NCBI GenBank assembly: GCA_002686265.1
Contig: NZBA01000050.1
Location: 372,001 to 436,000, forward strand
Length of the DNA stretch: 64,000 nt
Source: Planctomycetota bacterium
GTDB taxonomy: Bacteria; Planctomycetota; UBA1135; GCA-002686595
Direction of reading: 5' to 3'
Under the pieces are notes generated by a model. That model was not told the DNA's origin and made no database searches. It worked only from the letters and a program-made list of their open reading frames with translations. Position numbers and translations under genes: made by a program. Shown piece after piece: positions 10,902 to 14,701 of the stretch; position 1 is the stretch's first letter; each line of letters opens with the position of its first letter.

Positions 10902-11258
10902 TCAGACCAGCGCGCTCTTGGCCTCTTCGGCCAGGGCGTCGAAGGCGGCCGGGTCGTTTACCGCCAGCTCGGACAGCTGCTTGCGGTTGAGGTCCACGCC
11001 GGCCCGCTTCAGTCCGGCCATCAGGCGCGAGTAGTTGATCCCGCGCTGCCTTGCGGCGGCGTTGATGCGCAAGATCCACAGGCGTCGGAACTGGCGCTTG
11101 CGCTGCTTGCGGTCGCGGTAGGCGTAGGCCCAGGAGCGGACCAACGCCTCGCGCACGGTGCGCCAGAGCTTGGAGCGCCCGCCGCGGTAGCCGCGGGCGG
11201 CCTTGAAGTAGCGGAGCTTCTTGCGCCGGCGCGGAGCGCCGTAGGTGACGCGCACCAT
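10902..11258 (-). CDS. rplT: 50S ribosomal protein L20
   Basis: 118 residues, the exact family length. It has the basic N-terminal extension ([14 protein letters not shown]) and the globular [11 protein letters not shown] and NRKQLSELA segments. L20 binds 23S rRNA domain II early in assembly. In other bacteria it represses translation of rpmI-rplT by binding the mRNA; the same gene order here makes that possible but no operator was tested. It starts one base after rpmI ends. Confidence 0.97.
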
Positions 11259-11259
11259 C

Positions 11260-11454
11260 TCAGGACCCCATCATCCGGCGCATCATGTTGCCCCAGGTCG
11301 TGGGCAGGACGATGCGTTCGCGCAGCCGGCGCTTGCCGGCGGCGTTCTTGGAAGCGTGCATGTGACCGCGGGCGGGACGGCTGCACTTGACGCGCCCCTT
11401 CTTGGTCACCACGAAGCGCTTCTTGACGGCGCCCTTCGACTTCATCTTCGGCAT
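11260..11454 (-). CDS. rpmI: 50S ribosomal protein L35
   Basis: 64 residues beginning [14 protein letters not shown] at the ATG at 11454. The frame is open upstream but the conserved N terminus fixes the start. Very basic, as expected for L35. It is the second gene of the classical infC-rpmI-rplT cluster, with 225 bp separating it from infC. Confidence 0.97.
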
Positions 11455-11679: not shown

Positions 11680-12216
11680 TCAGACCTCCGCGGCCCGATC
11701 CATCTTCTGAGGCAGTGGCGCGAGCATCATCGTCATGCGGCGCCCCATCATCCGCGCCGGTGATTCCACCTTGGCGACATCCTCGAGGGCGGACACCACG
11801 TCCTTCATCACGTTGTAGCCGTGCTCGGGGTGCCGTAGTTGGCGACCTCGAAAGATACAGACGACCTGAACCTTGTGACCGGCCGCGAGGAACTTGCGTC
11901 CCTGGACAAGGCGGTAGCCGAGGTCGTGCTTGTCGATCGCGGGCCGGACGCGCAGCTCCTTGAGGTGGGACGCGGTCTTGCGCCCCTGTCCGGTCCGCTC
12001 GCGCTTGCGTTGCGCGTACTTGAACTTGCCGAAGTCCATGATGCGACAGACGGGCGGACGCGCGGTGGGCGAGACCTCGACCAGATCGAGGTTGGCGTCC
12101 TGTGCCATGCGCGCCGCCTCGGAGGTCTGGACGATTCCGACCTGCTCTCCAGCAGCGTCGATCAGCCTCACCTCGGGAACGCGAATCTGTCTGTTCCGGC
12201 GATAGTCCTGTGCCAG
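11680..12216 (-). CDS. infC: Translation initiation factor IF-3, CTG start
   Basis: IF-3 (178 residues from the CTG) binds the 30S subunit, blocks 50S joining and proofreads start codons. The N-domain begins RNRQIRVPEVRLID (residues 7-20) and the C-domain contains MDFGKFKYAQ and MMGRRMTMMLAP. No ATG or GTG occurs before the conserved IRVPEVRLID. The in-frame GTG at 12171 would delete it. CTG at 12216-12214 lies 7 bp downstream of a strong AAAGGAGA and gives the normal length. IF-3 genes often use rare start codons (AUU in E. coli) so that IF-3 represses itself, and that logic fits here. Confidence 0.95.
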   Translation of the reverse strand: MAQDYRRNRQIRVPEVRLIDAAGEQVGIVQTSEAARMAQDANLDLVEVSPTARPPVCRIMDFGKFKYAQRKRERTGQGRKTASHLKELRVRPAIDKHDLGYRLVQGRKFLAAGHKVQVVCIFRGRQLRHPEHGYNVMKDVVSALEDVAKVESPARMMGRRMTMMLAPLPQKMDRAAEV

Positions 12217-12229
12217 GGTCGTTCTCCTT
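12214..12229 (-). promoter_or_regulatory. Shine-Dalgarno and CTG initiation site of infC
   Basis: On the minus strand AAGGAGAA (12229-12222) is followed 7 bp after its GGAG core by CTG (12216-12214). A near-perfect ribosome binding site in front of a non-standard start codon is what an autoregulated IF-3 gene would need. Confidence 0.7.
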
Positions 12230-12386
12230 TGTCTTGTTTCGGTGGATCAAGCCCGCTCGCGGGCCGCATCCGGGGTCGAGACGGCGGTCTGCCGCCATCG
12301 TGAAGCGTCACCGCTCCAGGGGAGCAGCATAGTTCGCGGCCGCCGCGAGCGCCACCCGCGGAAGGCCGAGACGAGCCCGAGATCCG

Positions 12387-14201
12387 TCACGCCTCGGCGC
12401 CCGCGGCGTCGGAAGCGGCCCGAGCGGCTGCGTCCAACTCGATGTGGACGTCTCCGAGCTGCTCCGCGCTCACACGCGAGGGCGCCGCGCACATCAGGTC
12501 CGCGGCCGAGGTTGTCTTGGGGAAGGGCAGGGTGTCGCGCAGGTTCTCGAGGCCGAGCGAGAGGGCCACGATGCGGTCGAGGCCCACGGCGAAGCCGGCG
12601 TGGGGCGGCGCTCCGTGGGCCAGGGCCTCGAGCAGGAAGCCGAACTTGAGCTCCTGTTCGGCCGGCGTGATGCCCAGAAGCTCGAAAACGCGCTGCTGCA
12701 CGTCGGAGCGGTGGATCCGCACCGAGCCCGAGCCCAATTCCCAACCGTTCAGCACCAGGTCGTAGGAGCGGCTGGCCAGGGAACTCAGATCGGCGCCCTC
12801 GCCACCGAGGTTCCAATCCTCGGGGGCGGTGAAAGGGTGGTGCGAGGAGGTCCAGCCGCCGCTCTCCTCGTCGCGCTCGAAGAGCGGAAAGTGGGTCACC
12901 CACAGGAACTCCCAGGACGTCTCCCCCACCAGGCCGCGGCTTCGGCCGAGGTGGACGCGCAGCTCGCCGAGGGAGCGCTGCACGATTGCGGCGCGGTCGG
13001 CCACGAAGACGCACAGGTCGCCCTCGGTCGCCCCCATCTGCTCCATCAGGGGCGCTCCGTCTCCGTTCATGAAGCGCGCCAGGGGGCCGGCCCCGCCGTC
13101 GTCGGCGGGCTTCCACCAGGCCAGCCCGCGCGCGCCGTAGTCCTTGGCAAGGACCTCGAGCGCCTCGATCTGCTTGCGCGAGAGCTCGGCGCCGCCGGAG
13201 ACCACCAGGCCCATGACGCGCCCGCCGCCCGCGATCGTGTCGCGAAATACGCCGAACTCCGAGCTCGCGGCCCACTCGCCGACGCAGACGAGCTCCATGC
13301 CAAAGCGCCTGTCGGGCTTGTCCGAACCGAAGCGTTCCATCGCCTCCGCGTAGCGCATGCGCGCGAAGGGCACCGTCACTTCGACGTCCATCGACTCGCG
13401 GAAGGTGTGCGCGAGAACGCGCTCCCAGACGGCCCAAACGTCCTCCTCCTCGACGAAGGACATCTCCATGTCGAGTTGAGTGAATTCCGGCTGGCGATCG
13501 GCGCGCAGGTCTTCGTCGCGGAAGCAGCGTGCGACCTGGAAGTAGCGATCGTAGCCCGCGACCATCAGGATCTGCTTGAAGATCTGCGGGGACTGGGGCA
13601 GGGCGTAGAAATTCCCCGGGTGGACGCGGCTGGGCACGAGGTAGTCGCGTGCGCCCTCTGGAGTGGCGCGGGTCAGGATCGGTGTCTCGATCTCCAGGAA
13701 CCCCTCGTCCTCGAAGGCGCGCCGCATGGCGTTGATGAAGCGCGAGCGGTGAGCCAGGTTGCGCTGCAAGGGCCCCCGCCGCAAGTCCACGTAGCGGTAG
13801 CGCAGGCGCGTCTCGATGGCCGTGTCGAGGTCATCGAGGACCTCGAAGGGCGGCACCTCGGAGGTGGAGAGCACCTCGACCCGCTCGGCGATCAACTCCA
13901 CGTCGCCGGTCGGCAGGCCCTCGTTGCGGTTGGACTCGCCGCGCGCGGCCACCTCGCCGCGCACCGAGAGGACGTACTCCGGTCCGAGCTTGATCGAATC
14001 CGCGATCTCCTCGCGCAGAACGACCTGGGTCACCCCGTAGCGATCGCGCAGGTCCACGAAGTAGATCCCGCCGTGGTCCCGGCGGCTATCGACCCAACCG
14101 TTGAGGGTCACCTTGCAGCCGACCCTCTCGGACCGCAGCTCCCCACAGGTGTGAGTCCGACGCCAGTCCGCCGCACTCAGCTCGTCCTTGCTCTCCGACA
14201 C
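12387..14201 (-). CDS. aspS: Aspartate-tRNA ligase
   Basis: 604-residue class IIb synthetase of the bacterial type with the large insertion domain. The order is an OB-fold anticodon domain (about 15-110, with GWVDSRRDHGGIYFVDLRDRYG), the catalytic core with CFRDEDLRADRQPEFTQLD (motif 2), the bacterial GAD insertion (about 300-420), and motif 3 GLDRIVAL. The GTG at 14201 is chosen because it gives the expected N terminus; a longer frame exists upstream and the ribosome binding site is weak. It follows atpC by 83 bp and precedes infC by 170 bp on the same strand. Whether it also charges tRNA-Asn cannot be judged. Confidence 0.94.
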   Translation of the reverse strand: MSESKDELSAADWRRTHTCGELRSERVGCKVTLNGWVDSRRDHGGIYFVDLRDRYGVTQVVLREEIADSIKLGPEYVLSVRGEVAARGESNRNEGLPTGDVELIAERVEVLSTSEVPPFEVLDDLDTAIETRLRYRYVDLRRGPLQRNLAHRSRFINAMRRAFEDEGFLEIETPILTRATPEGARDYLVPSRVHPGNFYALPQSPQIFKQILMVAGYDRYFQVARCFRDEDLRADRQPEFTQLDMEMSFVEEEDVWAVWERVLAHTFRESMDVEVTVPFARMRYAEAMERFGSDKPDRRFGMELVCVGEWAASSEFGVFRDTIAGGGRVMGLVVSGGAELSRKQIEALEVLAKDYGARGLAWWKPADDGGAGPLARFMNGDGAPLMEQMGATEGDLCVFVADRAAIVQRSLGELRVHLGRSRGLVGETSWEFLWVTHFPLFERDEESGGWTSSHHPFTAPEDWNLGGEGADLSSLASRSYDLVLNGWELGSGSVRIHRSDVQQRVFELLGITPAEQELKFGFLLEALAHGAPPHAGFAVGLDRIVALSLGLENLRDTLPFPKTTSAADLMCAAPSRVSAEQLGDVHIELDAAARAASDAAGAEA

Positions 14202-14284
14202 GTCGCGCAGAGTACCGTCCGCACGGCCCGATTCCCTCACCTCGCCCGGGAGTTCACCCCCGCGTCCTGACTCTGGGCGAGGAT

Positions 14285-14701
14285 TCAACGGCGACGCCCG
14301 AGCTGCTGGCGCAACAAGGCCCGCCGCAAGGCGGCTTCGGCCCGCAGGAAGTCGATCGCCGACTCGCGCACGAGCGCCTCACCGCGTCGGGCGATGCGCC
14401 CGCGGGCGCGTTCCTCGGCTTTCTTGGCGCGCTCGACGTCGATCTCCTGGCTCTCCTCCCCAGCCGCCGTGAGCACCCGTACGGTGCCCCCGCGTACCTC
14501 GGCGAAGCCGCCGTCCACGAAGAGCATGCGCTCCTCGCCGCCCGCGCGGTAGCGGACGAAGCCGGCGTCGAGGGCGGAGGCCATCGCCGCGTGGTGCGGG
14601 AAGATGCCCATGTCCCCGTCCAGACCGGGAACGCGCACCGAGGCGACCGTCGTGTCCACGACGATCCGCTCGGGGGTGATGACGCGCAGGGTGAGTTCCA
14701 T
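14285..14701 (-). CDS. atpC: ATP synthase F1 subunit epsilon
   Basis: 138 residues. The N-terminal beta-sandwich (MELTLRVITPERIVVDTTV, GDMGIFPHHA) contacts the c-ring and gamma. The C-terminal Arg/Ala-rich helical hairpin (about 88-138) is the part that inhibits ATP hydrolysis in many bacteria. Last gene of the ATP synthase cluster, 18 bp after atpD. Confidence 0.95.
   Translation of the reverse strand: MELTLRVITPERIVVDTTVASVRVPGLDGDMGIFPHHAAMASALDAGFVRYRAGGEERMLFVDGGFAEVRGGTVRVLTAAGEESQEIDVERAKKAEERARGRIARRGEALVRESAIDFLRAEAALRRALLRQQLGRRR

Follow-up and report, generated by a model that had tools for sequence, protein, structure and literature searches.

CTG as the start codon of infC in a planctomycete, with probable feedback by IF3

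Sequence evidence well supports CTG, behind a strong Shine-Dalgarno (SD) sequence, as the start codon of infC, the gene of translation initiation factor IF3, in the Planctomycetota bacterium whose DNA was analyzed here. The window, that is, the whole stretch under analysis, comprises 64,000 nucleotides from a draft assembly of 135 contigs. The CTG is a real feature of this infC. In our judgment, it is probably translated by the ordinary initiator tRNA, with IF3 repressing its own mRNA.

The infC gene and its start

The minus strand of the window carries, in this order, aspS, infC, rpmI, rplT and the phe genes (Table 1). While thrS is often found upstream of infC, the window gene at that place (12387-14288) resembles aspS instead, which we take it to be from its sequence; the phe genes beyond rplT are presumed on the same basis. 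The infC product matched the TIGR00168 (infC) profile nearly end to end, with residues 4-168 lying on profile positions 4-168 of 170 (E 8.2e-57; 191.7 bits vs a cut-off of 60). The match of rpmI to TIGR00001 reached 46.3 bits, slightly below the cut-off of 51.2. When read from the CTG, the infC product can be aligned to solved full-length IF3 chains beginning at its residue 3; for 1tif, the alignment begins at residue 2.

Table 1. Features of the infC region discussed in the text
Feature	Position	Strand	Remarks
Putative own promoter of infC	12326..12354	minus	TGGCGC - 17 nt - TATGCT
In-frame stop TGA upstream of infC	12249-12247	minus	read from sequence
Shine-Dalgarno AAAGGAGA	12230-12223	minus	upstream of infC CTG
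Proposed infC start codon CTG	12216-12214	minus	well spaced from SD; conserved in G001
infC, translation initiation factor IF-3	11680..12216	minus	178 codons + stop, read from CTG
First in-frame canonical codon GTG	12171-12169	minus	rejected as infC start
rpmI (L35)	11260..11454	minus	ATG start; TIGR00001 E 3.8e-12
rplT (L20)	10902..11258	minus	ATG start; TIGR01032 E 3.4e-41

The infC frame is open back to the upstream TGA, and between this stop and the GTG at 12171 it contains no ATG, GTG or TTG, leaving no canonical codon at the full-length position. These observations bear out the initial annotation, which had reported that no ATG or GTG precedes the conserved IF-3 N-terminus and had placed the start at the CTG behind a strong SD; the relatives agree with this placement. 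The distance of 7 bp that it gave depends on the counting, as the gap is 7 nt from AAGGAG but 6 nt, a working distance, from AAAGGAGA. The anti-SD CACCTCCTT is present in G001, a genome of the same genus; a search for it in the window's own MAG did not find it. We infer that initiation at the CTG occurs with methionine.

Translation from the internal GTG, the first canonical codon in frame, would yield an IF3 without 15 residues, and we regard it as very improbable. This GTG has no SD before it, and the 15 residues that would be dropped can be aligned, starting at residue 2 or 3, to solved IF3 chains. Furthermore, the 38 nt that begin with the C of the CTG are identical in the window and G001, which argues against a start so far inside. 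Two other weak codons lie in the frame, ACG at 12222-12220 and ATT at 12186-12184. Both are near-cognates, and ACG probably serves as an infC start in other lineages, but here the ACG directly abuts the SD and the ATT has none, so that initiation at either one is similarly remote. The internal GTG, the ATT and the ACG were all rejected as infC starts on the grounds of SD and spacing.

The comparison within the genus rests on two genomes, that of the window and G001. The infC of G001 has the same CTG, the same spacer and AAGGAGA; the 13 nt before the CTG are identical, and at the 14th G001 has G instead of the first A of AAAGGAGA. Over the 103 nt upstream of the CTG (ungapped, and including the 13 identical nt), the two genomes show 29 differences, and over the infC gene 60 differences in 534 nt, 46 of them at third codon positions. 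The conservation of the CTG block amid a diverged upstream region and diverged third positions argues for the CTG as a translation start rather than an assembly error. That a sequencing or assembly error conceals an ATG or GTG of infC is accordingly hardly credible. In its favor are the draft state of the assembly and an out-of-frame ATG at 12298, but G001 carries the same CTG block and has ACG in place of that ATG, and its only ATG further up in the infC frame, 53 codons ahead of the anchor residue, sits within the putative -10 box TATGCT. The ATG at 12298, which is not conserved and lies in another frame, was therefore rejected as the infC start. Thus, the comparison of related infC starts that the initial annotation had proposed finds the CTG again, and a sequence correction creating an upstream ATG, which would have spoken against its reading, is not supported.

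Upstream of infC, a recurrent motif, (T)TGGCG(C) - about 17 nt - TATNCT, was observed at roughly 100 nt from the gene in the window and in loci of the family. This motif is likely to be infC's own promoter. A TAT-N-(C/A)-T box lies upstream of infC in 55 of the 76 family loci, a count without a chance control and with the -35 part judged by eye. A generic sigma-70 promoter scan returned nothing in the infC upstream region. An RNA switch or L20 leader was rejected as well, as two tRNAs are the sole Rfam hits at gathering thresholds in the window, and the fold of the infC leader is unremarkable (z -1.04).

infC starts among relatives

Starts were assigned by a caller whose candidates were ATG, GTG, TTG, CTG, ATT, ATC, ATA and ACG only, with ties going to ATG. 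Where it saw no SD, it picked the nearest canonical codon, as in 18 of the 76 infC calls of the window's family, f1 (TTG 9, GTG 8, ATG 1), and in the rplT calls of the same family (ATG 15 and GTG 4, of 37). Its range ended 45 codons before the anchor residue; in L002, an ATG that lies beyond this limit, at 53 codons, scores higher. All start counts and Fisher tests treat related loci as independent.

In f1, 81 genomes were examined and infC was present in 76, all of which were read. The starts are GTG in 52 loci, TTG in 18, CTG in three (the window, G001 and G017), ATG in two (L027 and L113) and GTA in one (L011, of genome G030). The ATG of L113 (caller: ACG) and the GTA of L011 (caller: none) were set by eye, the caller's own output for L027, L113 and L011 being ATG 1, ACG 1 and none 1. 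From 12 to 45 codons before the anchor residue, four of the 76 loci have no ATG, GTG or TTG, 70 have GTG or TTG only, and two have ATG. In contrast, ATG is available in all 37 loci in which rplT was found and was called in 33 of them, and rpmI was likewise called with ATG in 33 of 37. The difference in ATG use between infC (2/76) and rplT (33/37) gives a Fisher p of about 1e-21, with loci counted regardless of their relatedness. Separately, of the 62 family loci in which the presence of rplT could be judged (1300 nt or more of sequence beyond infC), 25 showed no rplT, L005, L007 and L150 among them; the gene order infC-rpmI-rplT may be interrupted in these.

The closest other genus (L140 and L141) reads SD-NNN-GTG-AGG-GCA-CAA, as compared to SD-ACG-ACC-CTG-GCA-CAG in the window. 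Given that L140 and L141 have GTG and a different spacing, the CTG would most simply have arisen within the window lineage together with a change in spacing. The SD lies 6 nt from the start in the window, versus 3 nt in the majority of family members with an SD (the caller's measure, judged by eye), which speaks against the proposed reading. In G017, CTG stands where relatives have GTG, and the usual family spacing is kept. L011, whose genome is a single contig, lacks ATG, GTG and TTG in range; 8 nt after its AAGGAG comes GTA, in the same column as the TTG or GTG of relatives. Judging from this arrangement, L011 infC probably starts at GTA.

The wider sample consisted of 105 further planctomycete genomes (24 + 81 from two sets); in the larger source set, 144 of 149 genomes matched, and 81, hand-picked and mostly one per family or genus, were read. 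The caller gave ATT 30, ATC 20, TTG 18, ATG 14, ATA 8, ACG 7, CTG 4, GTG 3 and none 1. Outside f1, ATG was thus called for infC in 14 of 105 loci, versus 53 of 57 for rplT and 47 of 50 for rpmI. When three more genomes are added (108 loci in all), 50 loci lack ATG, GTG and TTG in range, 30 offer GTG or TTG only, 25 offer ATG, and three are not evaluable. The avoidance of ATG at infC is therefore strong but not absolute, as 25 of the 105 evaluable loci offer an ATG in frame. Outside f1, the starts of L231 (ATC; caller: none) and L274-L276 (ACG) were set by eye.

CTG also occurs at infC in G127 and G150, which belong to one family and share the column, and in G233; G150 has an in-frame ATG near its CTG as well. 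CTG was called in four loci outside f1. In L245 and L257 the range is free of ATG, GTG and TTG; in L253 an ATG with an SD is present as well; and the call for L249 is ambiguous. In g153, the genus of G233 (L273-L276; five genomes, one without a match), a single genome shows CTG in the column where the three others with a match show ACG, each with AGC as the next codon. ACG was called seven times outside f1; for L223, L240 and L255 among these, the range contains no canonical codon. In these three loci and in L183, which belong to other planctomycete families, ACG stands behind an SD, and L183 also has an upstream TTG; from this context, ACG is the probable infC start in all four. On an IF3 tree of 182 rows, a quick tree read without branch support or shuffles, the 7 rows with CTG, one of which is ambiguous, require a minimum of 5 changes, and all codon states together a minimum of 53. 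CTG thus appears to have arisen at infC about four or five times.

Other phyla were represented by 80 named loci, the best 80 of 561, chosen by similarity to the window IF3; six of the 80 (L031-L036) match family loci by eye. In these best 80 of 561, the caller gave ATC 37, ATA 22, ATT 8, ATG 5, GTG 4 and TTG 4, so that ATC, ATA and ATT account for 67, and 41 of the 80 lack ATG, GTG and TTG in range. The initial annotation had noted a codon different from the AUU of E. coli. The CTG does differ from it, but is not unique to the window, since a few other planctomycetes have CTG, and probable ACG and GTA starts occur.

Initiation at CUG and feedback by IF3

The window's own genome encodes, at one place, a tRNA-Met with a CAU anticodon and the anticodon arm GGG-CTCATAA-CCC, which has three G-C pairs in the anticodon stem; read by eye, this initiator tRNA has a C1-T72 mismatch. 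With such a standard CAU initiator tRNA, CUG is a mismatch codon, as expected of an infC autoregulated by IF3. The ordinary initiator tRNA would read CUG with full pairing at codon positions 2 and 3 only, and the strong SD may be needed to offset so weak a start. IF3 would destabilize initiation complexes on poorly matched codons, including those on its own mRNA, and thereby repress it. Initiation at CUG would rise when free IF3 falls, and would fall when free IF3 rises.

IF3 autoregulation through CUG, which the initial annotation had also proposed and which is partly supported here, is the most likely function of this start by analogy, given that IF3 discriminates against codons other than AUG, GUG and UUG (PMC4611024, PMC5472188) and that the feedback of E. 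coli infC depends on AUU. The comparative pattern fits such feedback, as ATG is avoided at infC but not at rplT or rpmI, and the start column moves among near-cognates. The low output of CUG, on the other hand, counts against this reading for an essential factor. It is cited in PMC11497404 as 0.86% of that of AUG, and in PMC9845219 CUG yielded no GUS in either chloroplasts or E. coli. The weakness of CUG would favor an alternative in which the CTG is the start but merely fixes a low, constant output without IF3 feedback. This alternative is also favored by the GTG and TTG starts of most of the family, which a review exempts from IF3 discrimination (PMC4611024). However, the rarity of ATG at infC in the family and the wider phylum sample is specific as compared to rplT and rpmI, and IF3 is the very factor that acts on such weak codons. 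We thus consider constant output unlikely, though a more serious rival than the misplaced starts or the assembly error discussed above.

For the family as a whole, feedback cannot be assumed, because 70 of the 76 f1 genomes use GTG or TTG. CUG itself need not be special in the proposed feedback; any sufficiently weak non-AUG codon in the start column would serve, and lineages would shift among AUU, AUC, AUA, CUG, ACG, GUA, GUG and UUG, mostly avoiding AUG. A broader proposal, which we put forward only tentatively, is that the infC start of Planctomycetota is an exchangeable set point kept off AUG by selection, at which any weakly paired codon could serve, such as GTA or ACG, whose middle base is not U. 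The IF3 of f1 might then discriminate GUG and UUG from AUG, with CTG tightening a feedback already in place.

Relation to known systems

Non-AUG starts of infC are textbook knowledge, and the avoidance of AUG at infC across phyla is probably not new, as an earlier publication reportedly lists infC. We found no report of CTG, ACG or GTA as an infC start in the open-licence PubMed Central literature. The recurrent replacement of the start codon in a single column, where AUG is rare, provides natural replicates in which the codon-anticodon mismatches read by IF3, and the strength of their reading, could be compared. Gene finders limited to ATG, GTG and TTG would truncate or mis-start infC in the window and in many relatives, a mis-annotation already noted for the infC of Streptomyces (PMC5472188).

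Like the infC of E. coli, which starts at AUU and is under IF3 feedback (PMC5472188), the window gene encodes IF3, has an SD and a near-cognate non-AUG start, and would be expected to be repressed by IF3. It differs in that the mismatch lies at position 1 (CUG) rather than position 3 (AUU), and the feedback that is proven in E. coli is inferred for the window. The infC genes of Streptomyces (ATC, with IF3 feedback), Listeria and Bacillus subtilis (both ATT) also have noncanonical starts, in other phyla and with other codons (PMC5472188, PMC13068326, PMC1805508); a CTG start is noted among B. subtilis genes, the gene being unnamed (PMC1805508). Streptomyces sigR, which starts at GTC and is repressed by IF3, likewise places a rare start under IF3 control, but the target is a sigma factor and not IF3 itself (PMC5472188). 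Finally, the GUA initiation codon mutation of E. coli recJ, known here from a title in the references of PMC9845219, indicates that IF3 acts on GUA and bears on the probable GTA start in G030, although it is a mutation and concerns another gene.
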